64,000 bases of DNA from Christensenella intestinihominis. Its GTDB lineage: Bacteria; Bacillota; Clostridia; Christensenellales; Christensenellaceae. Positions 30,081-63,766 of the stretch are shown piece after piece. The notes under the pieces are model-generated. The model did no database searches. It saw nothing but the letters and a program-made list of their open reading frames with translations, and was not told the DNA's origin. Each line of letters opens with the position of its first letter. Positions within the stretch are counted from its first letter, which is position 1. The stretch lies in the NCBI RefSeq assembly GCF_001678845.1, contig NZ_MAIQ01000002.1:124001-188000 (forward strand). Reading direction: 5' to 3'. The position numbers were made by a program, and so were the translations under genes.

Positions 30081-30087
30081 TAAACAA

Positions 30088-30556: not shown

Positions 30557-30584
30557 CGTCGCGGCAAATTCCGTGATTTCAAAA

Positions 30585-30608: not shown

Positions 30609-30640
30609 CTTGCTCCACTTCCGCAAACTATTTTCACGCC

Positions 30641-31639: not shown

Positions 31640-31715
31640 AAAATGTTGTACCCCTGCACTTTTCTCCCCGCCAACCGTCTTTTATGGCGCGCCTCTTTTT
31701 CCCGTCCCGGGGCTT

Positions 31716-32135: not shown

Positions 32136-32232
32136 ATAACCATTCTCTCCATTTCCGCGCCTTTTGCGCGTTGCCCGGTTTCCGGTAATAGCTCCGGCCT
32201 TGCTTGTTTTGCAGCCCGGCATCCATACAGTT

Positions 32233-32928: not shown

Positions 32929-32949
32929 CCGCTCTCTCCCGCCGCCGTT

Positions 32950-33747: not shown

Positions 33748-33759
33748 ATCTCTTCCCTG

Positions 33760-36700: not shown

Positions 36701-36981
36701 TCCGGCGCGTCTGCCCCGCCGTTTTCCGCCTCCCCGGGCGGCATGCTCTCCTCCGGGCCGCTGGTGGCTTCCGGCTCCGGGTCGTCGTCTGGAACCTGCC
36801 CTGCTTCCCCGTCCTGCCCGGAACCGCCGTTTTCTTCCATTTCAATGAAGGCGGCTTCTTCCGCCGCGCCCTCCGGCGCTGTTTCATTCGCATAGGAAAG
36901 ACCGGCCATTGAAACGACAATAACCGCCGCGATTAAAAACGATATGATTTGTTTAAAATAGCGTTTCCTGCTTCCCGGCAT
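33760..36981 (-). CDS. Wall-anchored repeat protein with PxTG-type sorting signal
   Basis: 1073 residues. Signal peptide (about 1-31), an acidic Pro/Glu/Gly-rich stretch (about 33-165), then a series of Ig-like repeats carrying ...GNxxxVSxxxxVDNTPP..., DRAGN and YYxRAIDKAGN signatures. The end is a sorting signal: HPTPKTGDERG, a hydrophobic helix (YYLMGLAALAVLAVCAGYLL) and the basic tail CNKKKTGGNR. A sortase recognising PxTG should link it to peptidoglycan. No sortase gene lies in the window. It is the only one of the repeat proteins here with such an anchor. Confidence 0.9.
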   Translation of the reverse strand: MPGSRKRYFKQIISFLIAAVIVVSMAGLSYANETAPEGAAEEAAFIEMEENGGSGQDGEAGQVPDDDPEPEATSGPEESMPPGEAENGGADAPEETPDSSAPPGEDAPGKTEAADGLVAEPTAGQPEAGNGEQAETENGGLEPTQPEAVDPVFPAALEPSPAPDFLPLTLERGDTSAGNATDTDAPEIELVMSYFYDPELRRVESYDPAFREDVYFWDEDGNLLDGGVRYRSAGLALPGETTYDIVYPRSEQPCFSLIMSDSGSGLAEKDFGGTQSPYFEYLLSRTPLTREQLEAAAGWKTVRAFETGVGQNDGEGRWIIYARAFDKAGNAAYVSSPGYVQDNSGPAATDIAYTAENETADGWAKSRTVTFRLGDPELADGTPGLGLDEGKVYIHNTTSGSANANLSAYGLAPRQNGDGTWSVTVGIWPTNAEMSVTAYDRAVNHDFTGAASGPNVRQNRGFVLDRIDSVPPAIESLAVGQEDVWTREKTVSAVVSDSAVKMESKTGIDDGGKLFTYPVPGETVAGSGVGSVFICENKDAGPEDENSVPASASLDLDGQAFQAKVDRNGTYYLVATDRVGNRSEQMFTVTTIDSTKPTVMEVSHTPETTEEGYLSQTDYILEVSGISDEKEAGVPGTVTGVWYGTENDVGKAAPVREYAANSPDCTIPVTPPDGATTYYVWAEDEFGNFSEPAGTTIYKDTAAPHTGQPYADPGGWTNKDEVTLTVPGVVDAASGIKAVLYAEQPITREGDGTEMAYADGTATVTVTPAGEGVHTYYFRAIDKAGNMGAEKTVNVSIDRSAPSGSIKEGKNAWQGFLDVITFGQYHREDATFTVEAEEPGTQEGRASGMASIEYYVREAAADADTLNEPKERFMEASKDWEWKTYTPATDISIPVDPNAKRVVYAKLADRAGNVTYISSEGAVFDNTPPAVSGLAQTAGDGMCVISFQITDNVSGVDEASVKYGETADGSGALVPIPGSGPGSYALSVPMDGKAYYIYAADRAGNAMTPLKTEAAKAAAGEADGNKPMDHPTPKTGDERGMEEYYLMGLAALAVLAVCAGYLLCNKKKTGGNR

Positions 36982-36996
36982 TTCCTTTGCCCTTCC

Positions 36997-37275
36997 TCAG
37001 CGGTTCCGAATCTTTTCCCGCATGGTGTTGCTCTGCCGGAACGCGATATATTCCGATTCAGGAATCAAAATCGGCTCGTTGGTCCGCGGATTCACCCCGC
37101 GCCGTGCCTGCCGCTTGCGCATTTCAAATTTCCCGAACCCCGTGATAACCACGTCCCGTCCTTCATACAGCGTTTCTATCGTCACCTTGACAACATGGTC
37201 GACAACCTTTTCCACCTCGATCAGCGGATATCCCGTTTGTGCGGCAATCCTGCCGATTAATTCCCGTTTATTCAT
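36997..37275 (-). CDS. hup: HU-family DNA-binding protein
   Basis: 92 residues, full HU length. MNKRELIGRIAAQTG starts the helical dimer body. GFGKFEMRKRQARRGVNPRT is the beta-arm signature, with the Pro that inserts into DNA (NPRT). It bends and compacts DNA as a dimer. It sits inside an operon of exported proteins (15 bases before the wall-anchored gene), an unusual place for HU. It could assist the DNA inversion or repeat recombination proposed nearby, which is speculation. Confidence 0.94.
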   Translation of the reverse strand: MNKRELIGRIAAQTGYPLIEVEKVVDHVVKVTIETLYEGRDVVITGFGKFEMRKRQARRGVNPRTNEPILIPESEYIAFRQSNTMREKIRNR

Positions 37276-47365: not shown

Positions 47366-50300
47366 TTATTCGCCGAAGCGTACGTTTTCAAACCGCAGCG
47401 TGGTCGTGAATTCACCCCGCAGCGTGGGCACGTTGCCCGGCGCGTAGCCGAACACGTCGCCCGCATAGGTAAACATGCCCCTGCTCGCCGGGTCGTCGCC
47501 CGTCGCAGGCTTCACCGCCAGCGTTCCCATCCTCTTCACGCCGCCGAAGTCCGCCCCCGGCATCAGGTTAAACTTGCCCATGGCGTTAAACGCCGTCGCC
47601 TTCTCGCTTTCCACGCCCTGCATATACAGCGTCAGCGTGTTGCTCGTGAGCGGCGTGCCCGGGGGCACAAGCGTGAAGGTGTTGTCCGGCTCCGCCTCGA
47701 AGTTCGAGACGGAAAGCCGCGTCTTCACAATATTGGAATTGTTCGTCACCGTATACGTGGGGGCCGTGAAATCCGCGCCCATCACGTTCGGGAACGAAGC
47801 GAACATCAGCTTCATCGGCACCGACACATTGATGACGTTCTTCTCGTCGTACATCTCGCGCACCGCGATGTTGCCGCTCCTGTCCGTCGCCTGCACATAA
47901 TGCGGCACGTTGTTCACGTCCGCCTCTACCTCAAAGTAATATCCGTTCTCCACATCCGGGTCTTTTGCCGCCGTGTTCGGGAAATCCGTTTTATTGCCGC
48001 TCCACAAAATCGCGGAATCTTCCACGCCCGAAACCGCGTCCGTCACCGTAAAGGCGATGCGCCACTTGCCCGAACCGAGGTCCGTGAAGGACACGTTGTC
48101 GATGAGCGGCGGGGTTTTGTCCGCGTCCACGCGCTGCTTGGCCGATACGTTGCCCACATTGTCCACCGCGAACACATAATACGGCTGTTCCGCAAGCTCC
48201 CCGGTCACAAACGTGCCCGGCGTTTCCGCGCTTTCTTCGATCTTCACGCAGCCGTCGAGCGCCGCCGCGTCGGTGATCGTTTCGGGCAGCGCGTCCGCGC
48301 TTTCCGAATAATATACGCCCGCATATTCGCGGAACGGCCCGTCCTGCTCGTCTGTTCCGCCCATGCCCGAAAGCGTATCTTCCACCGCCGCGGAAATTGT
48401 CATCGTATCCTTGTCGAACACGGGCTTTTGCACCGTCGGCGCGGAAGCGTCCACCTTTGTTACCAGCATCTCCTGCGCCGAACGGTTGCCCGCCGCATCA
48501 TAGCCGATGAAATAGAAGGCCTTGCCGTCCGCCCCAATATCCTCGCGCACCGGCGTTGCGGGCGCGTAAGCATAGGTTTTCAGCGCTTCGCCTTCCGGCG
48601 CGGTGAATACGTCCGTTCCGTTTTCGGCGGTTGCGTCCTTGTCGTCGCTCCAAAACAGCGTCTTGATGCCGCTTGAAATAAAGCGCGTGCCTTCCACCCA
48701 CTTGTCCTCTTCCGAAGCCGTGGCGCTGAGCAGCTTGCTTGCCGCCCAGTTTTCGGTTTCCTGCTTCATGTCCGTAAACGCGGGGCCTTCCTTATCCACA
48801 AGCACGGTTACTTCCACGCTCTTCGTGTAATCGTTCCAGTTGCCCGCATTGTCCACGGCGCGCAGGTAATATTTGGTGGTCGCGTCCGGCGGGGCAAAGG
48901 TTGCCGTATAGCTTCCGCTGCCGTCCTCCGTAAGCTCGTACGCCATGTCGTCCAGCATCACATCCGCGTAAACGTCGGGGCGGTTTTCCTTCATCAGGTA
49001 TACGCCCGCGATCCCGCTCGTAAAGCCGCCGGTGTCGACGTCTTTCACGTTCGCCGCCGTAACGGTCACCTCCGTGCAGGCGGCGTTCGCCCATGCCGGG
49101 GCAACCGTCGTGTCCGCCGCCGCGCCCACATCCGGCTTGGTGGCGTCCACGAGCAGCGTATCCGTGCCGATATAGCGGACGTTCCCCGCCGCGTCGTTGA
49201 TGCGGATATACACATAGTTCGCCACATCGGCGACCAGCTTGGCATTCATGGGGAACTTCCATCCCGTCGTCAGCGCCTTGAGCTCGTCCTCGGTGAGCGG
49301 CGTTTCGGATATCCTGTAGCGGAAATCCGAAATCTCGCTCATGTCGTCCTCCGTATATTCGAGGCTCACGCTCTCCGTTTTGTTGTAGTAATAATTTTTG
49401 TACGGCGGCGGCGGCATACTCGTCCATTCGTTGCTTTTGACCGTGATCTTGCCTTCGGGGGCCGTCCGGTCGCTCCTGATTACCACCGTTTTCTCCGGCC
49501 CGAGGTTGCCCGCGCTGTCCACCGCGCGGAAATAATACGTCAGCTCGCCCTGCGCCTCCGGCGTTTCATCCACCGTCGCCGTATAAACGCCGCTTACGTC
49601 CGTTTCGCTGAGCGTCATTTCCTGCGCCTCCGCCATGTTTTCCGGGGTGATCGCCGCGCTGCTGTAAAGCACCCTCGCAACGCCGCTCACAAATTCGCCC
49701 GCCTTGCTCGTATCCTCTTTAATATCCCCCACGGTAAACGTGAAGGTTTCCTGGTTCGTCCATTCCGTTTCGTCCGCCGCCGGTTTGCCGAGCGTAGGGC
49801 CGAGCGTATCCTTGTAAACATCCGTGGAAAGCGGATCGCTCACATTGCCCGCCTGGTCCTTCACCCACACGTAATACGTTGTTTTGCCGTCCACGGGCGT
49901 CACCGTAATGTCGCAGGTTTCATCGCCCGCCGTATAACCGTCCGCTTTCGTCGCTTTGGTTACATCGCCTTCCGTGCCGTACCACACTTCCGCCGCGCCC
50001 GAAAGCGCGTCGGTGATGCCGCTTGCCTGAAGCGTTACGTCCGCGCTGTTTGTATAGCTGTCCGCCGCAGAAAGCGGGTCGTGCGTCAGGCCGGTAAGCT
50101 CCGGCACAGCCGTATCGCGGTAGATGGTGGTGGTATATGCCTCGCTCGCGTTGCCCACCGTGTCCTTCACCCACACGTAATACGTCGTATCTTCGTCCTC
50201 CGTAACGGAAACGGGGATGTCGCACTTTGACGCGCCTGCCGTATAGGCCGCCTGCGTCGCCGTTTCGATCACATTTTCCGTGTTGTACCACACGGTATCC

Positions 50301-53300
50301 GCGCCGCTCTTGTCGTCCGCGATTTCCGTCAGCTTCAATGTGTAGTCCGTCCCGTTGTTATAATTGTCCGCCGCGGTTGCCGGGTCGTGCGCCAGCGCCG
50401 CCGTCGGCGATACGTCGTCTATTTTCAGCTCCACGGAATTCGCGCTCACCGCGCGGTTGCCCGCCGCGTCGACGGCGACCACCCACCATGCCGCATCATA
50501 TGTCCTGATATCCGCGGACTTATATGTATCCGTCAGCAGGTTTTTGGTCATAGTGACCGCGCCCGTGGGCAGGCTTCCGTCCGCGTTCAGCACCGCGTTT
50601 TTATCCTGCGTGGCGAATACGGCTTTGAGGTTGCTGCCGCCCGTATCCTTCACCGTCGCCGTCACCTTCTTGGTCCACGACCAGAGCACCGGCTCCTGCG
50701 CGATATCCGCGACGGTCGGCACCGTTTTATCGATCTGCACGGTAAAGGGCACGCGCTCCAGTGCGGGCCTGCCGTCCGAGCCCGTCGCGTTCACATAGTA
50801 TGTCTTATTCTGCGCCGCCGAAATTGTCGCCGTCGCCGTCACCTTCTGCCCGGTCACATAGCTCATGCTCGTGCCCGACGAAGCGGTTTCGCTCTCCGAG
50901 AAATACACGCCCGTAACCGCGACGCCATCCGGCACGCTGATTGTGGCGGTAACCTGCACGGACTGGTTCGTCCACCCCGTGGGTATGGCGGTAACCGATT
51001 CGATTATAATATTTCCCTTCGCGATCTTGTCGATCGTGACGGCCGTGCCTGCCGAAGTGATATTTCCGTCGTTATCCTCGGCGTACACATACCACGTCTT
51101 ATTCTCTTCAAAAATGCTTTCCGTCTCATACAGGCCGGTGCCTGCGTTCAGCGTCATCTCCGTATCCGTGCTGTAGGGCGCGTCCATCCACTCGCTGCTG
51201 TACCAGACGCGCTTCACGCCGCTCATGCCGTCGGTGACCTCCGCCACGATCTTCTTGCTTGCCGCGTAGCCCTCCGGGCTTTGCGACGCGCCCACCACCG
51301 GCGGGTCGGTATCCGTTTCCTTGATTACATATTTCGCGTCCGTGATGGTGCGGTTGCCCGCGTTGTCGTAGGCAATGATGTAATAGCCCATGTAATCCGC
51401 CTGCGCGATATCCCCCGTGCTCCATGTGTCCGTCAGCAGGCCCTTGGTCATTTCATAGGCGTAGAGGCCCGCCGCTTTATCCACCACCGGCTCCGTCGCC
51501 GCATAGTCTGTCGAGATAAACGCGCGCGCAACGCCTGTGCCCGGGTCCTTGATATCCGTATACAGCACCATCGTTTTCTCTGCCGACCCTTTTTTCAGCA
51601 TAGGCGGCACCGTGATTTCGGGCGGAACGGTATCGATCCCCACAACCTGCACCGCTTCCGAAACGGAACGGTTGCCCGCGTTGTCGTACGATACGGCTAC
51701 ATAAATGCCCTCTGTTCGGATTTCGCCCGACGTCCAGTCCTGCGTGTTCACGGCGCGCGTCATGTTAAATTCTTCGCTTGCCGCCTGCGTCGCGTTCGGG
51801 TCGGTCGTGAGGAACGCGCGCGCTACGCCGCTGCCCGTTTCGCCGTCCTGGATGTCCACCGTAACCGTCTTGAAGGCCGTCGTCCCTTCCTCGTTCACAT
51901 AGGGCGCTCCGCCAAACACGGGCGCAACCCGGTCGATCTGGATCACCGGGACAACGGCATGGCCGAATACGCCAAGGCTGTCCTTCGCGACAATCGTATA
52001 AGGCGTATTTTCCGTGACCGCGCCGGACACCCACAGCCCGTCCGCGTTTTTCGTTAAAATGATGTCCCCTGCCTGCGGGCCGGTGTCGTCATGGTCGGCA
52101 ACCAGCGTGAGGTATACCTGCACGATGGTGTTGCCCGCGTTCACCGACGTATCCGCCGTAATCTGGGCGTATACGGTTTTTTCGCGCGCCCATCCGTCGG
52201 GGGTGGAGCCCGCCACAATCGTCGGCTCTCCTGTCGCCCATGCCTCCGTAACGACGAAATACCCTGAAACGGAGCGGTTTCCCGCGTTGTCGTAGGCAAT
52301 CACATAGTAATATTCCCCGTCGGCTGTCGGCGCGATTCCGTCCCCGGTTTCATAGACGTTGCCGCTTCCGCTTGGGGCCATCACATATTGGGCTTCCGCC
52401 GCTTCCGTCGCGTTTTGGTCCTTGGAAATAAAGGCATGGGAAAGACCGCTGCCCGCGTCGCTGATTTCCGCGACCGCCGTCAGCCTTGGCGACCTCGACT
52501 GCATATAATTGGTAATTTCCGGGCCAATATCGTCGATCCGGGAAACTGCAACGGCTTCCGACACCGTGCGGTTCCCGACCTTGTCGTAGGCGATCACATA
52601 ATATGTCCCTTCCCGCGTGATTTTCCCGGCGGTTTTATAGATTCCGCTGTCTGCGTCCGCTTCCATGACGTACGCGCTTTCCTCCGGCGCTTCCGCCGTC
52701 TTGGACGCGGATACGAACACCGTGTCGATGCCGCTCCTGGTGTCCTCCACCGCCGCTTCGATTCCCTTGCCCGACGCCCATTCGCCGGGCGTCACTGTGC
52801 AGTTCGTTATGGCCGGGCCTTCCCTGTCAACCATGTCGATGACAACCTCGATGCCCTTACGGTTGCGGTAACCCCTTGCGTTTTCCGCGTAAACATAATA
52901 TGTGCCCGGCGTTGTGATCGCCGGTGAAATATATTCGTTTTCCGGCGGCGGGTTTCCAAACTCGTCCGCCGTTTTATTCAGGTACATGTTGGTGCCTTCC
53001 TTCGCGTCATTGGCAACTGTTGTGTAAAACACCTTGCTGATCGCGGAGGCTGCGTCCGTCACCTGGGCCTTGATCGTTTTCGACTGCGCCCACCCGGTGG
53101 GCTCCTGCCGCGCGTTAAACACCTCCGGCGCCGGAATATCCTGCACCACCACGTGCACCCATGTTCCGTTTTCCGTCCGGTTGCCCAGCATATCTACCGC
53201 ATAAATGTAATATTCGCCGGTTTCCGTGACGTCGGGCGCCTGGTAAAGCCCTTCGCCCGCAATCTCCATCTCAACCGCGCCCGCGTCGTCTTCCGTCGCC

Positions 53301-56300
53301 CCGGAAAGGACGTCCTTCACAATGTATACCTTATCGATCCCGATTCCCTTATCCACGACATTTGCGGTCACGACCGCCGACCCATAGGTGCTTTGCAGCT
53401 CGTCCTGCTTGGCGTTTGTGATCTCCGGCGCGTCATTATCGATCTGCGTTACCTCGAGTTTATAGCCGTCCGGCGTGGTGTTCCCGGCGCTGTCGACGGC
53501 ATAAATATAATAGGTATTCTCGCCCACCGGGCTATAGGTCTCATAGACGCTCGATGTGCCTGTTTTGCGCATCGGCACGCCTGTCAGCGCTCCGCTTTCC
53601 TGCGTGGACCAGAACACGGTATCCACATCGCTCGTAAGGTCGGTCACCGTCACGGTCAGCGTCTTTTCCTTCGCCCATCCGTCGGGCGTTACCACGCCAT
53701 CCTTGATTTCCGGCGGCGTGATATCTTCCACGGAAACCGAGGACGATTTTGTGATATTGCCCGCGTTATCCTCCGCATACACATAACAGGTGCGCGCGGA
53801 ACCGATCATATTTCCGGCCGATGTGAAAATTTTGTTTCCGTCAGCCGTTGTTTCGCCCGTATCCTTCAGGTTCGTGCCGGATGTCGCGCCCGTTTCACTG
53901 TTGGACCAAAATACCCGTTTCACTCCGCTCAGGGCGTCCTTTACTTCGACCTTGAACACAAGCTCCGCTCCCTGAACGGTCATATCCTGCGCGGCCGAAA
54001 TGATTTCCGGCGGGTCCACGTCAATTTTATCCACTGTGACAGAGAAGTTCTGTGATACATTGTTCACCTTGTCGACAGCGTAAACATGGTATTCGCCTTC
54101 CGTAACGCCGCTGATCGTATAGGTGTTCGAGGACGTCAGCTTCATTTCCAGCTCCGTCAAGGTTTCTTCGTTTACGCATACCACCTTCGCGACGCCGCTG
54201 CCCGAATCCGTCACCGTAGCGGAAATGGATTTTGCATTGCTCCATGTTGTCGGCACCTGCGTAACATTGGAAACGGTCGGCGCCGTCACGTCCACGGCCG
54301 ACCCGAGGCTGTTTGTAATCGTCCCGACGGTCTGGCTCGTTTCATCTTCGATCCATGAAAACACCTTATATCCCGATAAGCTGCTGGACACGCCGCTTGG
54401 CAGCGAAACCGTAACGCTGCCATTTGCACCGGTGATTTTCTGTACGCGGCCGACATATTTTTTCTTTGTCGAGGTATTGACGATCATCATGCCGATGTAA
54501 TTGTCGTCCCCGCCCTTAAGGCTGTTATACGTCACCTTGACGGTTCCATTGTTGTTGTTCGTAACAGCCATATTGGCGCTGAATCCCGCATCGCGTGTAA
54601 ATGCACGGAAAGTCGCTCCGCCTACGTCCGGGGTTGTCGACCATGTGGTCGGCGCCGTGCCGCCCGCGGCGGAAAGGGAAGTGCTCACGCCGGGCGCGCC
54701 GCCGCTTGATGAGGACGCAACAAACATCACCTTTCCCGGGATCAGGTTTACGCTCGGGCGCGCGCCGCCCTGTGAACGGATTTCTCCAAGTTCCGGGTCT
54801 ATCATCCAATGTGCAGTTGGAATGGCGCCCGACAGGCTCCCCGATGCTATGCTGGAGGTGCCTCTTTGCACAAGCTTCCCTTCATGGCGGTAATAGGTAA
54901 GGTAATCCACATACCGGTAGTAGCTTACCAGGGCCTCACCGGTAGATGAACCGTGCTTATCGCTGTAGCTTCCTTCCATATAATTATTCGTCGCCATCGG
55001 GGTGCCGATTGCCTTGCGCGAATCGTCGTTTGTGAAATACGCCGAATTCTGGAGGTCCTGGATACTCAGCGGGAACACCTTATCATAGAGCGTGTAGTTC
55101 GCACCGCTTCCATCCGCGTTGTCCGGCGTTGTAATCACAATCGGCGATGCAACAAGCAAACCCTGCTGTGTGGAACTAAATGCGTTCGTATACATCGGAT
55201 AATCCCAATCCACCGAGCATTTCGACGTAACTGTCGTGTCCAGGGCGCCGTCGCCCGGGCCGCTGTTCATCCAATAACGTGTGGCCGAGCTGGTGTTTTC
55301 GTACCCGCCGCCATGGATATTTTTGATGATATGGTATTGGGCGCTTCTGTATGAGTCAAACGACAGGAATGTGTGATGAAGCACATATTCCGATGTGAGG
55401 GTCACGACATCTCCATAGGTGCCCTGCCCGTCGCTCCTGATCGTCCTCCACAAAACGGGGCTTTTTGCGTTGCTGCCGGCCGTCTGCCAATATTCTCCAA
55501 ACCAAACCATCGCCCGGTTGGTATCGTTGCCCGATCCCTGGCCCATCCAGTACATCGGGTCGCCCTCGCCAATCGCTTTCAGGAGGCCGGTTACGTCGAC
55601 GGGCGTTCCGCTGGGGGTTATATTGCCCGCTTCGTCAATCGCGTAAATATAATACCTTCCGTCCGCCTTGATCGGGATGGAAGAGGTATAGGTCGATCCG
55701 GTCTGCAATGTCATCGGCGTGCCGGAGGTTGCCCCCGACGCGACAGACGAATAAAACACACTGGTAATGGAATTGCTGTTGTCCGTCACCGTGGCGGTCA
55801 GCGTTTTTTGTGCGGCAGCCCCCGTCGGGTTCTGGCTTGTACTTGTTACCACCGGGGGCGTATTATCTATTTTTTCTACCACAATCGCCGAAGACACGCC
55901 CCTGTTGTTTACAATGTCGTAGGCGACAATATAGTATGTCCCCAGGCCCAAAGGTTCTGTCTTGAAGATACTGCCCGACGCGGTCATCTTGGTGCCCGTG
56001 GTGGCTGCCGGGTCTGTTGTGAGGTATACACGGTCTTTATCGAGGCCCATTCCATAGTCGATTACGGTTGCCGAAATCGTTTTGTTGGATTTTGACCATC
56101 CCGGCGGGTCCTGCGAAATATTGCTGATCACCGGGCCTTCCTTATCGATGTTGGTAACTTTTACCGAGGCTTCCGAGCGCCTTCCATCCGAATTATAGGC
56201 AACAATATAATAGGTGCCATTGTTTGTAATATAGCCGCTTTCGTAGACGTCGCCTCCTTTATTCGTCATCAGGAAAGCATTGGATTCCGGCTCGGTTGCG

Positions 56301-59300
56301 CCGGATTTTGTAGAATAGAAAACCCTAGAAATGCTCCCGCCTCCCTGGTTCCTGACAGTAGCGGAAATCGTCTTTTGGATTGCGGGCGCGGTTGTATTTT
56401 GCTGCGCGTTTAAAATCAGCGGGAAGCTCGGAACCCGCACCGTCGATGCGGATACACTCCGGTGCTCAACCCCATCATAGGCGATTACATAATAATCCCC
56501 TGTCGTTGTAAACGCAGCCGTTTTCCAGATATTTCCCGAGGCCCGGCTCATATTAATGCCGGACGTCGCGTTTGCGTTTGTCGAAATAAAGGCGCGCGAA
56601 ATGCCGCTGCCCGCACCGTCGTCGAGGGTGGCATAGACAGCCATGTCATCCTCGTTATAATAATAGTCCGAGATTTTTGGGCTCTCACGGTCAATGCTGG
56701 TAACGTTAACCGAAACCTCCTTACGCTTCCCCTTGCCGTTATAGGCGACGATATAGTAGGTGCCTGTCTGTATGATTGTTCCCGAAGCATAAACGCCCCC
56801 GCCCTGGTGGGTCATTGCCGTTCCACTGCTCGCTCCCGACGTTTTGGAATAAAAAACCTTGGAGATTCCCGTTCCCGAATAGTCGGTTACATTGGCCAAT
56901 ATTTGTTTTTCCGTCGCCCAGCCCGACGGGGATTGCCTTTGGTTGGTTATAACGGGTAAATCACTCACGCCGGATATGGCGCTCGAAACCGTCCTGTTTC
57001 CCACATTGTCGTAAGCGATCACATAAAAATTTCCATTGTCGAAAAATTTATTGCTCGACCATGAATTGCCTCCCCGGTTATATAGGGTAATTCCGGAGGT
57101 TGCGGCGCTGTTTTTCGAGATAAACACCCGGTTTACGCCGCTTTGCCCGTCGGTAACGGTGGCGTACGCGGTCAGGCCTCCGTCGGTTGCGTCGGAGGTA
57201 AAGTAGACGTTGCTGACCGTAGGCGCGATCCGGTCAAAATTCTGCATGACGACCTGCCGTTCCGTCCTGCGCCCGGCTTTATCATATGCAACCAGGTACA
57301 TGGTTACCGAGGTTTGCTGTGACGTAATATTATCGATACGGTAGCTTCCGGTACTGGAAGACAGCCTGTTGCCCGTCGCCTGCCCGCTTTCATAAGACCA
57401 GAATACGTTGCTGATCCCGCTGCCCGTATAATCCTTTACGGTAAACGTCAGGGTTTTTGACGTTGTCCAGCCGCCGTTAAAGCTGATATTGCTGATTTCG
57501 GGCCCTCGCCATGTTACATCGGCGGAGGTCTTGGCAACTGCGGCGCTTGTCCTGTGGTTGGTTTCGCTTTCGTTCCACAGGTATAATTCCAAATTGCTGC
57601 CTTGCAGGGCTGTCGGCAGTGTTATGGTCGCCGAACCGGAAGCGGAAGTGATTTTCGCGACCCTGCCCGCCCATTTTTCGTGGGTATCCGTATTAACCAG
57701 CATTGCCCCCAGGTAATTGTTTCCGCTGTAAGAGGCCCCGGTGTAATGGACGGTATATACTTTTGCATTGCTGCCATCCGCTTGTTCAAGCGATTGGATG
57801 TTGATCGATTCTCCCCCGCGCGCAAACACCCGGTAACTCTGCGCGTTGCCCGCATAGGCATACATCCACTGGCTGTTTTTATCCCGCGACGCTCCGCTCG
57901 ATTTTGCCAGCGTTCCGTCTACCGACGGCGCGCCGCCCGTGTTGCCTGCCGCCACAAACGTGACCTTGGTCGCATCAAGGTTCATCACAGGGCGCGCCCC
58001 CACGCCAATGTCGTTCCACATAATTACCGGAACCTCAAGCTGGCCGTTATAGCCCGAACGGTACATAAATTCGTGATCCGCAGGCGTACGCGTATACCAT
58101 GAATCCCGATAGCTGCTGTGCAGGTAACTATCCGACGGTGCGGAATTCGTCGTGCCGATGGTCGTACGGGAAGCGGCCCCGTTGGGGAAATATCTCGTGT
58201 TTTGCAATTCCGCCAGCGTCAGGGTATATATCTGGTCCGATGTGCTTTTTCCCGTTTTCCCGCCCGATTCCAGGGATGCTTTTTCCGCTTCCAGCGTGGT
58301 CGGCAAAATCCATGAGCGCTCCGTGCTGTTAAAAGCGGACGGCAAATAACCCGTGGACGAATAGTCGACAGCCGCGCCATCCCATGTGCTGGCGCCGCCA
58401 ACCATCCACGCGCGCAGGTTGCTGCTGGTGCCGTCGCTCCTGTAATAATGGATGCTCTCCATGTCATAGCCGACGTTTTTCAGCATATATTCGCTCATCA
58501 GCATAATTTTGTTGTTATCGCTGTAAAGGACCCGGTTCAGCACCGGTTCAGGATTCGAGTCGCTGTATTGGTCAAAGCTGCCGAACCAAACCATGGCGCG
58601 GTTGCTTTCGTTTGTCGCCGTCCCGGTCCAGCCGTCCATGTAGAAATTCGGATTTGTCCCGGCATTGGCGGCGGCATAAAGCGACGCGTCCACCGTGAGG
58701 GTCGCCGCTTCCGAATAGACGGTATCCGCGCTTTCCGCCGCCAGCGCCTTGGTGGGCGCAAAAAGGTCGAACAGCGAGGCCGCCGGCGCTTCCCCGGCGG
58801 AGACGCGGCAGCGGTACTGGTAACCGTTCTGGGACTCGTCACCGGCCGTTTCAAACGTATACTCCGGCTCGGTCGCGCCCGCAATATCCTCCCATGTGCT
58901 TCCGCCGTCCGTGCTCACCTGCCACTGGTAAGCCGCACCCGGCAGGTCGCTTGCCGCAACATTAAACTCCGCTTTTTGGCCCGGCACAACCGCCTGGTCG
59001 CACGGGTTCATCGTAATTTCAAGGACGGATTTAAGATACAGGTTCTTGATCCGGCCATACGGCAGCGCGCCGCTTTCTTCCGGGCTGAACCCGCTGTGCA
59101 GCATCGCGTCGTTGGGAAGCTCCGAGTCGTCTTCCGCCGTGCCGCCCGTGCGCCACTCCGTCACTTCCCCGAACAATCCGTAATAGATTTGGTTCCTGTC
59201 TATTCCCGTATTGTTATTGAGGTCAATGGTATGGTCCTTTCCATCGAACGTGCCGCTAAACGGATTTTCCGCCGTGCCGATGGGCGTAAAATCCCCATCC

Positions 59301-60799
59301 TCCGCAATAATATCCGCTGAAAGCACATAATCCGCGTCCATTGTGTACGCGGCGTTATATTCCGTATTCCCGATGTTTTGGAACTGTTCCCATGTGGATA
59401 TTTCATTGACCGGGCCTGTCTCCACAAGCGGCACGGTCTCGGAAAGTATCGTGGGGAACACGTCGTCCACCGGCTCGAGCGGGACCACCTGTTCTATTTG
59501 CGTGGGAAACACCGGGTCCACCGGCTCGAGCTCCTTTTCCTCGTCGATCATCTGCGAAATAATGACCGGAATTGAAAATTGAACCTCCGTTTTCCTGCCG
59601 TCCGCCCACGCGCGTTCATAAACGGCGACCACGCTTGTCGCGCCCACCGTTTCCCCGGCCGTGACCGTTATGTCTTTGTCTGTTTTGGACGAAAGGGAGG
59701 CCATCGTTTCATCGGCGTTCCATTCCTTGAACGTAAGCCCGAAGGGTTCCCCCGTTTGCATATCCGCGGAAAGCACGCCGCTCTGCCCCGCCATCACCGC
59801 AAGGTATGACGGGCTTGGCTCGATTTTGAAAACGCCGTCCGAGCCATTGACCGGGCTGTCCACGCCAAACGCGCTGTCCTGCCCGTAGGCCGACGACCAC
59901 AGGTTGTTTTCGAACCTCTCCGCCGCAATGCCGTTGCTGCCGATAAACGCCCCGATTTGCTTGTTGGGTTCCGCGTCCGTCCCTGCTTCTTCGTTCCTGC
60001 GCTCGTCCGTATTCACGAAAGCCGCCGTGTTTTCAATTTTAACGGCGTCGCCCGCTTCCGCCGCGCCCGCAAGGCCGCCCGCGATGAACGCGGGAATCTT
60101 TTCCTTGTCCGTATCTTCCGGGAACCCGGACCGCACGATGCTGCCTATCATAAACAGGCCGCTTATTTGTGCGTTTGCGCCCAGCGCTCCGGCGAATATG
60201 CCCGCCGTATTTCCCGTCACTTCAATGTTCAGGAAGGATACGTCCTCCGCTTTTCCGTCGAAACGCGAAAAAAGCCCCGCATACGGCGCGAATACGTCTT
60301 CATTTTTGATTTGGATATTTGCAATGATATGCCCGCCGCCATAAAACGTGCCGGTAAAAGGCGCGTCGGCGGAGCCGATGGGCGCGATCACCGTTTTCGT
60401 CCCGTCGGCCTGCGTGCCGTCTATGTCACCCGAAAGGAGGTAAGACCCGTCGAGGGGATAGGCCGGGTCGACGCCGATTTTTTGGATATCCGCGAGGGTC
60501 GCGATCGGGATATCCGCCGGGGCCGGTTCCGTGGGCGTGGGCTCCGCGGCGGCTTCCGGCGTTTGCACTGCCGTAGGCTCCGCGCTTGTTTGCGGCGTGC
60601 CGGGGGCTTGCGTGCCTTCGGCCTCTTCGCTTTCTTCACCCGGCGAAGGTTCTGGCGTCCGGCTGGAAGTGGCGGACTGCGATGGCCCGGGCGCAATTGT
60701 GCCCGGAAGCTCATCTGCCGCCGCAAACGCACTTGTTCCAATCGATAATATTGTAAGAATTGCCAACAGGACGGATAGTGCCTTATAAATCCTTCGCAT
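47366..60799 (-). CDS. Giant 4477-residue surface repeat protein
   Basis: Signal peptide MRRIYKALSVLLAILTILSI (cut near residue 27) and a Pro/Thr/Glu-rich stalk (about 30-95). GLUG-like beta segments follow (GTFYGGGHIIANIQI; GTFDGKDHTIDL), then an Ig-like domain (YQWQVSTDGGSTWEDIAG, near 630). Two DUF6273-like domains (near 720-960 and 1640-1990) contain AMVWFGSFDQ...LLMSEYML-type and AMVWFGEYWQ...TLTSEYVL signatures. More than 25 Ig-like repeats of about 85-110 residues share WATEKQILANVTDYSGTGI...YYIVAYN-like motifs. The last about 170 residues (INVSVPMKLMFASFPNVMG...) are the C-terminal domain shared with the paralogs. There is no sorting signal. The start follows GGGGTTACGTT, a weak ribosome site. 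It is likely an adhesin or surface layer filament. The invertible segment lies just upstream. Confidence 0.93.
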   Translation of the reverse strand: MRRIYKALSVLLAILTILSIGTSAFAAADELPGTIAPGPSQSATSSRTPEPSPGEESEEAEGTQAPGTPQTSAEPTAVQTPEAAAEPTPTEPAPADIPIATLADIQKIGVDPAYPLDGSYLLSGDIDGTQADGTKTVIAPIGSADAPFTGTFYGGGHIIANIQIKNEDVFAPYAGLFSRFDGKAEDVSFLNIEVTGNTAGIFAGALGANAQISGLFMIGSIVRSGFPEDTDKEKIPAFIAGGLAGAAEAGDAVKIENTAAFVNTDERRNEEAGTDAEPNKQIGAFIGSNGIAAERFENNLWSSAYGQDSAFGVDSPVNGSDGVFKIEPSPSYLAVMAGQSGVLSADMQTGEPFGLTFKEWNADETMASLSSKTDKDITVTAGETVGATSVVAVYERAWADGRKTEVQFSIPVIISQMIDEEKELEPVDPVFPTQIEQVVPLEPVDDVFPTILSETVPLVETGPVNEISTWEQFQNIGNTEYNAAYTMDADYVLSADIIAEDGDFTPIGTAENPFSGTFDGKDHTIDLNNNTGIDRNQIYYGLFGEVTEWRTGGTAEDDSELPNDAMLHSGFSPEESGALPYGRIKNLYLKSVLEITMNPCDQAVVPGQKAEFNVAASDLPGAAYQWQVSTDGGSTWEDIAGATEPEYTFETAGDESQNGYQYRCRVSAGEAPAASLFDLFAPTKALAAESADTVYSEAATLTVDASLYAAANAGTNPNFYMDGWTGTATNESNRAMVWFGSFDQYSDSNPEPVLNRVLYSDNNKIMLMSEYMLKNVGYDMESIHYYRSDGTSSNLRAWMVGGASTWDGAAVDYSSTGYLPSAFNSTERSWILPTTLEAEKASLESGGKTGKSTSDQIYTLTLAELQNTRYFPNGAASRTTIGTTNSAPSDSYLHSSYRDSWYTRTPADHEFMYRSGYNGQLEVPVIMWNDIGVGARPVMNLDATKVTFVAAGNTGGAPSVDGTLAKSSGASRDKNSQWMYAYAGNAQSYRVFARGGESINIQSLEQADGSNAKVYTVHYTGASYSGNNYLGAMLVNTDTHEKWAGRVAKITSASGSATITLPTALQGSNLELYLWNESETNHRTSAAVAKTSADVTWRGPEISNISFNGGWTTSKTLTFTVKDYTGSGISNVFWSYESGQATGNRLSSSTGSYRIDNITSQQTSVTMYLVAYDKAGRRTERQVVMQNFDRIAPTVSNVYFTSDATDGGLTAYATVTDGQSGVNRVFISKNSAATSGITLYNRGGNSWSSNKFFDNGNFYVIAYDNVGNRTVSSAISGVSDLPVITNQRQSPSGWATEKQILANVTDYSGTGISKVFYSKTSGASSGTAMTHQGGGVYASGTIIQTGTYYIVAYNGKGKRKEVSVNVTSIDRESPKISDYYYNEDDMAVYATLDDGAGSGISRAFISTNANATSGINMSRASGNIWKTAAFTTTGDYYVIAYDGVEHRSVSASTVRVPSFPLILNAQQNTTAPAIQKTISATVRNQGGGSISRVFYSTKSGATEPESNAFLMTNKGGDVYESGYITNNGTYYIVAYNSDGRRSEASVKVTNIDKEGPVISNISQDPPGWSKSNKTISATVIDYGMGLDKDRVYLTTDPAATTGTKMTASGSIFKTEPLGLGTYYIVAYDIVNNRGVSSAIVVEKIDNTPPVVTSTSQNPTGAAAQKTLTATVTDNSNSITSVFYSSVASGATSGTPMTLQTGSTYTSSIPIKADGRYYIYAIDEAGNITPSGTPVDVTGLLKAIGEGDPMYWMGQGSGNDTNRAMVWFGEYWQTAGSNAKSPVLWRTIRSDGQGTYGDVVTLTSEYVLHHTFLSFDSYRSAQYHIIKNIHGGGYENTSSATRYWMNSGPGDGALDTTVTSKCSVDWDYPMYTNAFSSTQQGLLVASPIVITTPDNADGSGANYTLYDKVFPLSIQDLQNSAYFTNDDSRKAIGTPMATNNYMEGSYSDKHGSSTGEALVSYYRYVDYLTYYRHEGKLVQRGTSSIASGSLSGAIPTAHWMIDPELGEIRSQGGARPSVNLIPGKVMFVASSSSGGAPGVSTSLSAAGGTAPTTWSTTPDVGGATFRAFTRDAGFSANMAVTNNNNGTVKVTYNSLKGGDDNYIGMMIVNTSTKKKYVGRVQKITGANGSVTVSLPSGVSSSLSGYKVFSWIEDETSQTVGTITNSLGSAVDVTAPTVSNVTQVPTTWSNAKSISATVTDSGSGVAKVVCVNEETLTELEMKLTSSNTYTISGVTEGEYHVYAVDKVNNVSQNFSVTVDKIDVDPPEIISAAQDMTVQGAELVFKVEVKDALSGVKRVFWSNSETGATSGTNLKDTGETTADGNKIFTSAGNMIGSARTCYVYAEDNAGNITKSSSVSVEDITPPEIKDGVVTPDGWAKEKTLTVTVTDLTSDVDTVFWSTQESGALTGVPMRKTGTSSVYETYSPVGENTYYIYAVDSAGNTTPDGYKLEVTQIDNDAPEITNAKQDELQSTYGSAVVTANVVDKGIGIDKVYIVKDVLSGATEDDAGAVEMEIAGEGLYQAPDVTETGEYYIYAVDMLGNRTENGTWVHVVVQDIPAPEVFNARQEPTGWAQSKTIKAQVTDAASAISKVFYTTVANDAKEGTNMYLNKTADEFGNPPPENEYISPAITTPGTYYVYAENARGYRNRKGIEVVIDMVDREGPAITNCTVTPGEWASGKGIEAAVEDTRSGIDTVFVSASKTAEAPEESAYVMEADADSGIYKTAGKITREGTYYVIAYDKVGNRTVSEAVAVSRIDDIGPEITNYMQSRSPRLTAVAEISDAGSGLSHAFISKDQNATEAAEAQYVMAPSGSGNVYETGDGIAPTADGEYYYVIAYDNAGNRSVSGYFVVTEAWATGEPTIVAGSTPDGWAREKTVYAQITADTSVNAGNTIVQVYLTLVADHDDTGPQAGDIILTKNADGLWVSGAVTENTPYTIVAKDSLGVFGHAVVPVIQIDRVAPVFGGAPYVNEEGTTAFKTVTVDIQDGETGSGVARAFLTTDPNATQAASEEFNMTRAVNTQDWTSGEIRTEGIYVAVSYDNAGNRSVSEAVQVVGIDTVPPEITVPPMLKKGSAEKTMVLYTDIKDPGTGVARAFISTDYAATEPVVDKAAGLYAYEMTKGLLTDTWSTGDIAQADYMGYYIIAYDNAGNRTITDAKYVIKETDTDPPVVGASQSPEGYAASKKIVAEVTDGMSGVKRVWYSSEWMDAPYSTDTEMTLNAGTGLYETESIFEENKTWYVYAEDNDGNITSAGTAVTIDKIAKGNIIIESVTAIPTGWTNQSVQVTATISVPDGVAVTGVYFSESETASSGTSMSYVTGQKVTATATISAAQNKTYYVNATGSDGRPALERVPFTVQIDKTVPTVADIAQEPVLWSWTKKVTATVKDTGGSNLKAVFATQDKNAVLNADGSLPTGAVTMTKNLLTDTYKSADIRTYDAAWWVVAVDAAGNRAVSANSVELKIDDVSPTAALAHDPATAADNYNNGTDYTLKLTEIADDKSGADTVWYNTENVIETATQAAYTAGASKCDIPVSVTEDEDTTYYVWVKDTVGNASEAYTTTIYRDTAVPELTGLTHDPLSAADSYTNSADVTLQASGITDALSGAAEVWYGTEGDVTKATKADGYTAGDETCDITVTPVDGKTTYYVWVKDQAGNVSDPLSTDVYKDTLGPTLGKPAADETEWTNQETFTFTVGDIKEDTSKAGEFVSGVARVLYSSAAITPENMAEAQEMTLSETDVSGVYTATVDETPEAQGELTYYFRAVDSAGNLGPEKTVVIRSDRTAPEGKITVKSNEWTSMPPPPYKNYYYNKTESVSLEYTEDDMSEISDFRYRISETPLTEDELKALTTGWKFPMNAKLVADVANYVYIRINDAAGNVRYIGTDTLLVDATKPDVGAAADTTVAPAWANAACTEVTVTAANVKDVDTGGFTSGIAGVYLMKENRPDVYADVMLDDMAYELTEDGSGSYTATFAPPDATTKYYLRAVDNAGNWNDYTKSVEVTVLVDKEGPAFTDMKQETENWAASKLLSATASEEDKWVEGTRFISSGIKTLFWSDDKDATAENGTDVFTAPEGEALKTYAYAPATPVREDIGADGKAFYFIGYDAAGNRSAQEMLVTKVDASAPTVQKPVFDKDTMTISAAVEDTLSGMGGTDEQDGPFREYAGVYYSESADALPETITDAAALDGCVKIEESAETPGTFVTGELAEQPYYVFAVDNVGNVSAKQRVDADKTPPLIDNVSFTDLGSGKWRIAFTVTDAVSGVEDSAILWSGNKTDFPNTAAKDPDVENGYYFEVEADVNNVPHYVQATDRSGNIAVREMYDEKNVINVSVPMKLMFASFPNVMGADFTAPTYTVTNNSNIVKTRLSVSNFEAEPDNTFTLVPPGTPLTSNTLTLYMQGVESEKATAFNAMGKFNLMPGADFGGVKRMGTLAVKPATGDDPASRGMFTYAGDVFGYAPGNVPTLRGEFTTTLRFENVRFGE

Positions 60800-61027
60800 A
60801 ACGTAACCCCATATTAAATACTTAAAAAACCTGCAACTTTAATGCTCCTGACCGCCTTTTTGTGGTATTCTGGTGCTACTGAACGGCTCAATGGTCAGCA
60901 TCGGAATCCATATGATACGCCTGTCATTCCACGCCTCGAAATGTGACATGACAGTGTGGTATCCCGGATATTCCTTAAGGCTTGCGTATAGACACGCGAA
61001 CCGCCTGCCTTTCAACTTTGAAAGGCG
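60800..61027 (-). promoter_or_regulatory. Leader region of the giant gene, no gene seen
   Basis: No convincing promoter reads toward the giant gene here. A perfect 9-base dyad GCCTTTCAA/TTGAAAGGC lies at about 61008-61027 without a T-run on the minus strand, so it is not a terminator. This would be the 5' untranslated region if the promoter at 62406 is inverted. Confidence 0.55.
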
Positions 61028-61049
61028 ATTCGTAAAACAAACAGTTTTA
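61028..61049 (-). repeat. Left 22-bp inverted repeat (IRL)
   Basis: Its reverse complement is identical over 22 bases to 62479-62500. Each copy is itself a dyad with arms of about 8 bases (GTTTTACG side and TAAAAC side) around TGTTT, as expected for a tyrosine recombinase core site. Confidence 0.9.
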
Positions 61050-61124
61050 TACAGCCCCCCCGCTTATTGCGGTTTTATTCAGTTTTCAAGGTGCGCCGCC
61101 GACGGATTATGACGGCTCATTTTT

Positions 61125-62243
61125 TCAGCACGCGATTCGGTTAAGCCGCCTGATCGATTTGATTTTGTTCTCGCGTGTGCAGTGCGCATAATATTGAATC
61201 GTAATCTGGGGCGTGCTGTGCCCCAGAAGCTCGCTTAGGGTCTCGATTCCAATTCGTTTTTCAAGGCAGCGTGTCGCAAACGTATGGCGCAGCGTATGGA
61301 AATGTGCGCCCCGGACCTTAAGCTTTTTAAATTTCTTTTTCAGCCGTTCCTGAAGCGTGCGCGGGTCGAGGCAGCCGCCCCTCGGGCTTTGGAAAACAAA
61401 ATCTGTTTCCCTGCCGTTTTCACGCGCCATTTTTTCCTTTAGCTGCCATGCAAGAAATGCCGGGATTGGCATTTCGCGCCGGGAATTTTCTGTTTTCGGC
61501 GTATCGAGGATCAGTTTTGTTTTAGCTCCGCCCTCCTTGCAGGGAACCCTTTTCAGCGTATGGTTTACATACAGCATTTTCTCTTCAAAGTCGATATCCT
61601 CCCACCGAAGGGCGCATACCTCCCCCAGCCGCAGCCCCGCATACAGGCACACGATATATTCCAGTTCCCCGGTTTGGGCAACGTCCCGTTCCAGCCGCAG
61701 CTGCTCGGAACAGGCCAGAACCCGCGGCCTTTTCACCTTGTTCTGCGGTTTCCTTACTTTCCCGAACGGTATTTCCCCGATCAGGTTTTTGTCCCTCGCG
61801 GCTACAAAAATAGATTTTAAAAGCCTGCATACGTTGTGCACCATGCTGGGCGCAAGCCCCTTTTTGATTTCGTTGACAAAATCCTGGACGTCGTCCTGCC
61901 TGATTTCGCCAACCTGCAATCCCCCGATTCGCGGAATAATATGCTTTTCCGCCTGGCTCTTATAAATCCGGTATGTCGAAATGTCCACATATGGTTTTGT
62001 CATTGCTTCCAGCCAGTAATCCACCCATGCTTCCAGCGTTCCGTTGCGATAGGCCTCAAGCACAGGCGCGGGATTTTTAGCGGCTTTCGCCTTGAGAATC
62101 GTCAGGGTTCGCTTTACCTCGATATACTGCCTGCCATATACATATCCGAACCTTGGCTTTCCATTTTGTTTCCGGCCGATGATGTACCGGCCCTCCCACC
62201 TTCCGTCTTTCCGGTGATAGATGTTTTCTCCTCTTCTTGCCAT
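61125..62243 (-). CDS. Tyrosine recombinase (putative DNA invertase)
   Basis: 372 residues from ATG 62243 (GAGAGGAT before it). N-terminal AP2-like arm-binding domain (MARRGENIYHRKDGRWEGRY), core-binding domain (about 70-165), and a catalytic domain with all key residues: Arg I in YAGLRLGEVCALRWEDID, HTLRHTFATRC (His and Arg II), LLGHSTPQITIQYYAH (second His and nucleophile Tyr). It resembles Tn916-type integrases. Lying between inverted repeats with no other mobile-element genes, it is more likely to invert its own segment than to move an island. Confidence 0.92.
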   Translation of the reverse strand: MARRGENIYHRKDGRWEGRYIIGRKQNGKPRFGYVYGRQYIEVKRTLTILKAKAAKNPAPVLEAYRNGTLEAWVDYWLEAMTKPYVDISTYRIYKSQAEKHIIPRIGGLQVGEIRQDDVQDFVNEIKKGLAPSMVHNVCRLLKSIFVAARDKNLIGEIPFGKVRKPQNKVKRPRVLACSEQLRLERDVAQTGELEYIVCLYAGLRLGEVCALRWEDIDFEEKMLYVNHTLKRVPCKEGGAKTKLILDTPKTENSRREMPIPAFLAWQLKEKMARENGRETDFVFQSPRGGCLDPRTLQERLKKKFKKLKVRGAHFHTLRHTFATRCLEKRIGIETLSELLGHSTPQITIQYYAHCTRENKIKSIRRLNRIAC

Positions 62244-62313
62244 TGCAATTATCCTCTCATTTCGTAAGATCGTTGCTGACGGCTCGTTTGACGGCTTACC
62301 GGGTAAACCGTTT

Positions 62314-62329
62314 AAATTCAATTGAATTT
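62314..62329. promoter_or_regulatory. Perfect 16-bp palindrome upstream of the recombinase
   Basis: AAATTCAATTGAATTT reads the same on both strands, about 70 bases before the recombinase start. A likely operator or arm-binding site. The region 62244-62478 holds no gene. Confidence 0.5.
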
Positions 62330-62405
62330 TTACTGAATTTACCCATTTTCCCTGCCTGAAATCACCCGCAATGCTTAAAAATGGCTTTGGAACCGCATAT
62401 ATGTA

Positions 62406-62434
62406 TTGACAGGTCAGGATTATTTTGTTATTCT
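62406..62434 (+). promoter_or_regulatory. Outward-facing sigma-70 promoter inside the invertible segment
   Basis: TTGACA (62406-62411), 17-base spacer, TATTCT (62429-62434). It fires rightward across the right repeat at 62479. Confidence 0.78.
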
Positions 62435-62478
62435 TTATTAAAGAATATATCGTTTTAGTGCTTTTGACCGCCTTATCG

Positions 62479-62500
62479 TAAAACTGTTTGTTTTACGAAT
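62479..62500 (+). repeat. Right 22-bp inverted repeat (IRR)
   Basis: Arms CGTAAAAC (62477-62484) and GTTTTACG (62490-62497) flank TGTTT. 62479-62500 is the exact reverse complement of 61028-61049. Confidence 0.9.
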
Positions 62501-62505
62501 TATGC

Positions 62506-62528
62506 GTCCCGGAATCCGGGGCTTTTTT
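62506..62528 (+). terminator. Terminator immediately outside the right inverted repeat
   Basis: GTCCCGG-AAT-CCGGGGC (one U-G pair), then six T. It would stop transcripts from the promoter at 62406 after about 90 bases in the present orientation. Confidence 0.78.
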
Positions 62529-62932
62529 ATTTCATGGAACCGCCATCAAACTGCCAGCTTCATGAGAGCTCTCGATCTATATTTAGCTTTTTTGACGTCA
62601 GGAAATACACCCGGAAACAAATTTGCGTTTCCGAGGCTGTTTTGTTTGTGATACTTTTTTAAACACGTTAACGGTTTGGGGGGGCGCCGCCGAATTTTGC
62701 GGCCAATATATTTTATTTTATCATCTTTTGCAATTCACCTTATTCAACTTATATCATACCTTACAAGTCATATTATATGCATTGCAGAGCCAATTTCAAG
62801 CGTTTTTCACCAATGACCAGTCTCGTTGTGTGAATGACCATTTTTCCCGGAATTTAATGCAGGATTCGCCGGATTTTAATCCGGGAAACACGCCCGCATG
62901 ATACAATAAAGGCAATCGAGTAAAAAGAAAAA
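62529..62932 (+). promoter_or_regulatory. Upstream region of the LytTR gene with direct repeats
   Basis: No credible gene. AATGACCA occurs at 62812-62819 and 62833-62840, 21 bases apart (two helical turns), the usual geometry of LytTR-domain binding sites, so autoregulation is likely. Confidence 0.5.
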
Positions 62933-63766
62933 ATGGCGATGTATAAAACTCAAACAAAAAGCTGGTGGAAAAATGCCGCATTGTGGACCCGTCAAATTAT
63001 GGAGGACCATTATGCGCGCAATCTCAATGCCGTTATGGAATGGATGGCCGACCATGTCATGTGGATCGGCCCGGTCCACAGCCAATTTGTTTTTGGAAAA
63101 AACGAAGTGCGGCGAATCCTTGGAAAAGAGCAGGACGTCGTTTGTATGATTCCGGATTCTTCCTATGAAATTATTTACGGCGACGAAAATATCTGTATTA
63201 CAGTAGGCCGGCTGGTTCCCCATACGGCGGATAACTCCGAAATTCTGCTGAGCGCCGTCCAGCGTGTTACCTTTGTATTCACGCGAATCGAAGGCCGTCC
63301 GCAGGTTATCCATATGCATGTATCCAATGACTGGGAAGGCATAGAGGAAGATGAAACCTTTCCATATAAAGCGGGCCGCGAAGCATTTTTGCACATGCAA
63401 AAACGGCTCGCCCAGCAGAACGACAAAGCCCCCAAATTTTCGGCCCGCGATATCTACCGCAAATGGCATTATATTGCAAACCGCGATATCATATATATTT
63501 CTGCCGATAATTACCGTTCCGTCATCCATACGGTCCACGGCAGCATAACCGTGCCTCTTCAATTATCCCAGGTCGAAAAAAAACTTCCGGAGCAATTTGT
63601 GCGCGTGCACCGGTCTTATATCGTCAATACGGACTATGTCATCCAAATCAAACGCTATTCCGTATATCTTTATAACGGCATCAAAATTCCGATTCCCCAA
63701 AAAAAATATGAAAAAGTAAAACGCCTGCTCCTGGCCGGTACAAACGGCCTGGTCTATATTTACTGA
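62933..63766 (+). CDS. LytTR-domain regulator with N-terminal SnoaL/NTF2-like domain
   Basis: 277 residues. An N-terminal domain (about 15-140, NLNAVMEWMADHVMWIGPVH...) resembles SnoaL/NTF2-like or PAS-like small-molecule domains. A C-terminal LytTR DNA-binding domain (about 180-275) shows IIYISADNYRSVIHTVHG, FVRVHRSYIVNTDYV and the usual IPIPQKKYEKVKRLL end. No receiver domain is present, so it is not a classical two-component regulator. Ribosome site weak; ATG 62939 is an alternative start. LytTR regulators often control surface or virulence genes. A role in the neighbouring surface locus is inference. Confidence 0.87.
   Translation: MAMYKTQTKSWWKNAALWTRQIMEDHYARNLNAVMEWMADHVMWIGPVHSQFVFGKNEVRRILGKEQDVVCMIPDSSYEIIYGDENICITVGRLVPHTADNSEILLSAVQRVTFVFTRIEGRPQVIHMHVSNDWEGIEEDETFPYKAGREAFLHMQKRLAQQNDKAPKFSARDIYRKWHYIANRDIIYISADNYRSVIHTVHGSITVPLQLSQVEKKLPEQFVRVHRSYIVNTDYVIQIKRYSVYLYNGIKIPIPQKKYEKVKRLLLAGTNGLVYIY

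Follow-up and report, generated by a model that had tools for sequence, protein, structure and literature searches.

A probable self-contained invertible promoter cassette with a built-in tyrosine recombinase in front of a giant surface protein gene

Positions 61028-62500 of the window, by which we mean the whole stretch of 64,000 nucleotides that was analysed, very probably constitute a self-contained invertible promoter cassette that carries its own tyrosine recombinase and is located in front of a giant surface protein gene. We infer the flipping of this segment from strong comparative evidence. An invertible switch had been put forward in the original prediction, and this reading is now supported by the inverted repeats of related loci, by a conserved outward promoter and by the terminator of a paralogous cassette in the same genome. 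The following features are relevant.

61028-61049, no strand: left inverted repeat (IRL), the target-proximal putative recombination core site; 22 nt, 100% complementary to 62479-62500
62479-62500, no strand: right inverted repeat (IRR); full dyad CGTAAAAC-TGTTT-GTTTTACG at about 62477-62497
61125-62243, minus strand: tyrosine recombinase of 372 aa (ATG at 62243, stop at 61125) with a predicted N-terminal beta-beta-beta-alpha domain of the arm-binding type, a core-binding domain and a catalytic domain
62277-62295, minus strand: GCCGTCA pair, 12 bp apart, upstream of the ribosome-binding region of the recombinase gene; probable arm-type sites
61100-61116, minus strand: GCCGTCA / TCCGTCG pair right after the recombinase stop codon; probable arm-type sites
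62406-62434, plus strand: outward sigma-70 promoter TTGACA-17-TATTCT with an extended -10 and 10/12 matches, from a promoter scan; conserved in the family
62506-62531, plus strand: intrinsic terminator outside IRR; GC-rich hairpin GTCCCGGAATCCGGGGC-TTTTTTATTT at 62506-62522 plus a T-run tail
62454-62474, minus strand: AAGGCGGTCAAAAGCACTAAA element directly inside IRR
60838-60858, minus strand: AAGGCGGTCAGGAGCATTAAA element, the other copy, which lies 39-59 nt before the ATG within the giant gene leader
62933-63766, plus strand: divergent gene past the terminator for a LytTR-domain regulator with a SnoaL-like domain; a paralogue occupies the equivalent place at the C29 cassette
47366-60799, minus strand: target gene for a 4,477-aa secreted repeat protein with a signal peptide, DUF6273 and OmpL47/DUF7743-type repeats
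45409-47349, minus strand: next gene, for a secreted protein similar to the 42042-44306 product (open reading frame listed to 47466; likely ATG at about 47349, which leaves 17 bp to the end of the giant gene)

A complete tyrosine recombinase gene between perfect 22-bp inverted repeats had been predicted, and the gene is indeed intact. The dyad with a TGTTT centre expected in each repeat is likewise present. The dyad of IRL has a 6+5+6 structure (TAAAAC-AAACA-GTTTTA), and its inner half ends in TA where IRR has CG. A pair of 22-nt repeats of this quality would arise in the region with a chance of about 1e-7, according to a rough estimate. The spacing between IRL and IRR is 1,429 nt, and the enclosed unit of 1.47 kb is bounded by short matched inverted repeats, as in an inverton, with the recombinase gene sitting between them as in a self-contained switch of the Hin type. 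A perfect 9-bp hairpin (GCCTTTCAA/TTGAAAGGC) without a T-run abuts IRL on its outer side at 61007-61026. A search of the region from 60 to 64 kb against Rfam gave no match.

The recombinase belongs to PF00589 (E 4e-25) and is therefore of the tyrosine type rather than the serine resolvase/invertase type. Its R-K-H-R-H/W-Y active site is present (R205, K250, H316, R319, H342 and Y352) and conserved across the family. An AlphaFold2 model with a mean pLDDT of 84.6 predicts the N-terminal beta-beta-beta-alpha domain, and the best structural matches of this model are 6EN2 and 6EMY. The remainder of the model, with the core-binding and catalytic fold, matches Tn1549 Int over 291 residues (Z 24.1, rmsd 4.2). 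Full-length lambda Int aligns to the model from residue 1 with a large rmsd, which is to be expected if the domains are rotated relative to each other.

Closer examination of the sequences flanking the recombinase genes of 56 cassettes revealed a strongly directional motif, CCGTCA. Upstream of the gene it occurs 58 times in the forward and 3 times in the reverse direction, versus 0.44 expected, and downstream 57 times forward and twice reverse, versus 1.14 expected. The sites are usually paired, with an upstream spacing of 12 bp in 19 cases, and they are nearly absent from control integrases (n=16). By analogy with lambda, these directional sites are probably arm-type binding sites for the N-terminal domain of the recombinase. 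They are new in that they go beyond what the original prediction had described. The direct repeats with the sequence AAGGCGGYC were also considered as recombinase sites. As these repeats are present at two cassettes only, CCGTCA is the better assignment for family-wide arm sites.

The source genome (3.03 Mb in 29 contigs) encodes two paralogues of the recombinase, with 53% and 48% identity. Further relatives were found within the genus (one other genome), within the order and the class, on Oscillospiraceae and Enterococcus contigs, and on plasmids. The layout of 61028-62500 recurs in about 55 relatives, with cassette units of 1.4-1.7 kb, and these cassettes of like design make the segment look like a portable ON/OFF switch. 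Inverted repeats with a score of at least 15 surround the gene at 49 of the 58 subfamily loci from Clostridia and Enterococcus, some of which are near relatives and thus not independent, versus 1 of 20 other integrases; flanks of 600 nt were searched for the former and 900 nt for the latter. Matching direct repeats occur at 6 of the 58. The repeats detected at weak members (e.g. L133, L137, L140, L145 and L146) may be partial true sites. Inverted repeats were not detected at L041, L049 and L055, which have GENIYHRKDGRWE-type recombinases, nor at L142 and L155, which lie inside the cassette clade. In the tree of the cassette-borne recombinases 6 label changes were counted, 2 being forced, which is compatible with a single origin as well as with several. 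The repeat sequences vary between cassettes and agree within each pair, and such matched repeats are a prerequisite for site-specific inversion.

The promoter is conserved as well. When the interval from the start codon of the recombinase gene to the closest repeat was scored for outward sigma-70 sites, the best one had a median percentile of 1.00 relative to shuffled sequences, and 67% of the loci exceeded 0.95. Many of the outward promoters in the family are a perfect TTGACA-17-TATAAT. Since the outward promoter outperforms shuffles across the loci, the promoter at 62406-62434 can be regarded as a family feature. An inward promoter for the recombinase, searched for in the same interval, was not above chance (median shuffle percentile of 0.54).

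Regarding the state of the switch, the original prediction placed an outward-pointing sigma-70 promoter inside the segment by the right repeat, an intrinsic terminator just outside that repeat, and beyond the left repeat a giant surface gene without a convincing promoter of its own. These elements were all located. The terminator hairpin starts 5 bp beyond IRR, and a transcript from about 62441 would therefore stop after about 90 nt, the dead end that had been anticipated. The giant gene starts at 60799, 229 bp beyond IRL, and the minus strand of 60800-61027 contains no promoter-like site with 9/12 or more matches. The promoter is so placed that in one orientation it would read out across a repeat toward the gene. 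Indeed, inverting the coordinates of 61028-62500 brings it to 61094-61122 on the minus strand, facing the giant gene, at the position that had been proposed for the ON state. The OFF state that was read from this sequence is thus well supported by the positions of promoter and terminator. The C29 cassette (L063), which carries one of the paralogues, also has an extended -10 promoter, and its terminator lies 5 bp beyond the repeat on the promoter side. Family-wide, under a stricter rule, terminators were found outside the promoter-side arm in 9 of 54 cases versus 2 of 55 outside the other arm.

The gene at 45409-47349 is likely to be co-transcribed with the giant gene as part of a presumed operon. 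The smaller secreted proteins encoded behind the giant gene at 42042-44306 and 45409-47349 have a long C-terminal sequence in common, and the C-terminus of the giant protein resembles theirs by eye.

The present target of the promoter could also lie on the other side: the cassette would then toggle between the LytTR regulator gene and the surface protein gene. This view draws on the recurrence of LytTR-type regulators past the promoter-side repeat, namely at 62933-63766 in the window and at L063 (545-1363), both with a SnoaL-like domain, and at the G001 loci L065 (10173-10931) and L066 (9324-10058, by sequence). We nevertheless consider it unlikely, because terminators separate the promoter from the regulator gene at the window and C29 cassettes, and because the neighbouring genes differ outside the genus. 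The recurring regulators may instead control the outward promoter.

It is less probable still that the present orientation is the ON state, in which transcripts from the recombinase gene would run on into the giant gene and inversion would silence the latter. The two genes are co-directional, an arrangement that dominates in the family, and a search of the minus strand from the recombinase stop codon to the giant gene gave no terminator. Weak read-through is therefore possible in the present orientation, and the OFF state may leak. However, the recombinase promoter does not exceed chance, and the strong conserved promoter points the opposite way, into a terminator at both the window and C29 cassettes. 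The present orientation is most likely OFF.

The genes next to the related cassettes were classified by a simple signal-peptide rule; some of the 5' calls are spurious, and the loci are not fully independent. Secreted-protein genes directed away from the cassette lie on the 3' side of the recombinase gene only at 25 loci, on the 5' side only at 6, on both sides at 5 and on neither at 10. The conserved promoter is directed away from the 3' side, which is therefore the OFF side. The targets include proteins of 2,800, 2,515 and 2,241 aa as well as WxL clusters. The C29 cassette of the source genome stands in front of a second secreted-protein cluster, and the cassette on C1 (L064, C1:230000-247000) in front of CheC/CheD, CheA and further chemotaxis and flagellar genes. 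The L064 region is syntenic with that of the G001 cassette L065 (C24:8000-26000), so that the chemotaxis/flagella operon is preceded by a cassette in two species, which suggests switchable motility genes. L152 is a clear ON-like member: across the repeat, its promoter faces a gene for a surface protein of about 1,200 aa. At L024 (3316-5652), the cassette has a surface-protein gene on either side; the two products have a signal peptide of 24 aa in common and are about 25% identical beyond it. L154 resembles L024 in having divergent surface-protein genes on both sides with the same or a similar leader and signal peptide. L024 and L154 look like toggles between an A and a B protein.

As a check on the switch, the opposite orientation was to be sought in related genomes. 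No flipped pair was detected in an all-against-all comparison of the cassette loci, among the plasmid records of E. raffinosus and E. faecalis, or among contig-break partners. The syntenic loci, which formed seven groups and covered three strains of E. raffinosus, showed a single orientation within each group. With no syntenic pair in opposite orientations, the switch continues to be something that we infer. The consistent agreement of syntenic loci makes free 50:50 switching in the sequenced populations unlikely. It also speaks for the view that the orientation is effectively fixed, in the sense that the cassette inverted once, or does so too rarely to act as a switch, and that the recombinase is kept for another reason. 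The skew of secreted-protein genes toward the 3' side points in the same direction, as it is unlike free flipping. On the other hand, catalytic residues, matched repeats, arm-type sites and the outward promoter have been kept over about 55 divergent loci, this promoter would be useless unless it faced a gene at some time, and both the ON-like L152 and the two-target loci L024 and L154 exist. A fixed orientation consequently appears improbable, to much the same degree as a present ON state. Within the preferred reading of an invertible cassette, a strong OFF bias, rare switching or conditional expression of the recombinase fits the orientation data better than free 50:50 flipping. The records of L028, L032, L066 and L131 end at most 10 bp from a cassette repeat. 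These ends could stem from a mixture of orientations in the populations that were sequenced, or from plain repeat-induced breaks.

In two of the cassettes a further element may come into play after inversion. A genome search with the degenerate pattern AAGGCRGYCRRRRRCAYTAAA was performed for the leader element, and AAGGCGGYCRRRRRCAYTAAA is matched perfectly at exactly four places, namely next to the promoter-side repeat on its cassette side and in the target leader, at both the window and C29 cassettes. The C29 copies of this AAGGCGGYC...CAYTAAA element are at 1764-1784 and 3284-3304 of L063. At present the copies are direct repeats, and they are complementary only in the inverted (ON) transcript, where modelling predicts that they would fold into a long stem closing the leader. 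The predicted stem of the window cassette has a free energy of -101.5 kcal/mol and a z of -6.0 according to the folding tool; by a rougher shuffle, z is about -4.4 for the window and about -3.3 for C29. One position differs in a compensating way between the window and C29 cassettes. Among 8 u/d differences in the AAGGCGGYC repeats, 6 keep the RNA pairing and 2 break it, which is too few to prove a functional stem.

In the mechanism that we propose, the core-binding and catalytic domains of the recombinase would bind the two dyad core sites, and its N-terminal arm-binding domain would bind the paired GCCGTCA sites on both sides of the recombinase gene. The identical AAACA spacer would be the place of strand exchange, leading to inversion of the 1.47-kb segment. 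In the OFF state, the strong promoter would fire away from the giant gene and its transcript would end at the terminator by IRR. In the ON state, the promoter at 61094-61122 would read over IRL into the giant gene and probably the related genes behind it, and the recombinase gene would face the terminator.

Cassettes with alike recombinases sit at unrelated sites, which is compatible with transfer. Together with the structural kinship of the recombinase to the integrase of the conjugative transposon Tn1549, this might speak for a small insertion-sequence-like mobile element with terminal repeats as transposition ends, but that explanation is very improbable, since the members stand before secreted-protein or motility genes, the outward promoter is positioned to serve the flanking gene, and the core sites are inverted rather than direct, for which this class of enzyme predicts inversion and not excision. 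A search of IMG/VR returned distant integrases only (26-27% identity), and phage records gave one 60-base match. The IMG/VR result leaves the cassette without a sign of being phage-borne.

Hin is a serine recombinase that acts at hix sites with a Fis enhancer, unlike the enzyme of 61028-62500, which is a tyrosine recombinase with probable arm-type sites. The Salmonella Hin/fljBA flagellar switch is nonetheless alike in having both the recombinase gene and an outward promoter within the invertible segment, and it has been named as a case of the occasional location of recombinases inside such segments (PMC5903667). The RecV switches of C. difficile (cwpV, flagellar and cmrRST) share a tyrosine recombinase, inverted repeats and the inversion of a promoter or leader before surface or motility genes in a gut member of the Bacillota (PMC5903667, PMC2784873, PMC7446863), but RecV acts in trans on several short switches, whereas here each cassette has its own recombinase. 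In E. coli, the promoters of the fimS, hyxS and ipuS switches before surface-structure genes are also flipped by tyrosine recombinases; these switches are short (260 bp for ipuS), and their recombinase genes lie outside or overlap one repeat only (PMC6083910). The clostridial inverton group 139, which shows orientation shifts in reads from hCom2, has been tied to a tyrosine-type recombinase (invertase group 35). It is likened here by description, and in the two examples given with coordinates the repeats are about 200 bp apart, too close to enclose a recombinase gene (PMC11892184). The Tn1549/Tn916 and lambda integrases are the best structural match, the predicted beta-beta-beta-alpha domain being placed like the arm-binding domain of lambda. 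However, these enzymes integrate and excise at direct core sites, whereas the cores are inverted here and the gene does not resemble the integrase of an element.

Taken further, portable promoter cassettes that flip themselves could be widespread in Bacillota and make up a class that has apparently not been described, a proposal that we regard as evenly balanced. An integrase of the lambda/Tn1549 type with paired arm sites would have been recruited to invert promoters, and the resulting units inserted ahead of motility operons, WxL clusters or genes for giant surface proteins. The site specificity would be particular to each cassette, and the OFF orientation would be strongly favoured, possibly because the arm sites impose a direction on recombination. 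Within this genus, the leader of the target would form a long-range RNA stem specific to the ON state. A family of tyrosine recombinases with promoter, recombinase and arm sites in one cassette was not found in the literature searched; subscription papers lay mostly outside this search and the novelty is unproven.

Cell-to-cell variation in gut bacteria stems to a large extent from invertible promoters, and it is often not known which enzyme flips a given one. Since one unit of 1.4-1.7 kb combines the promoter with the enzyme, its core sites and its probable arm sites, and the target lies next to it, transfer of a single DNA segment to a laboratory strain could put cause and effect to a direct test. 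We suspect that methods tuned to short invertons may overlook units of this size. If the arm sites and the OFF bias are real, nature would provide in these cassettes a DNA switch with a built-in bias, together with many pairs of recombinase and site that are compatible with one another. Elsewhere in the window, no inverted repeats of at least 22 nt with a 14-nt exact seed were detected across 19000-37200, where, over 22231-29080, 19813-21231 and 30641-31639, the type I restriction genes hsdR, hsdS and hsdM are located between two further tyrosine recombinase genes.
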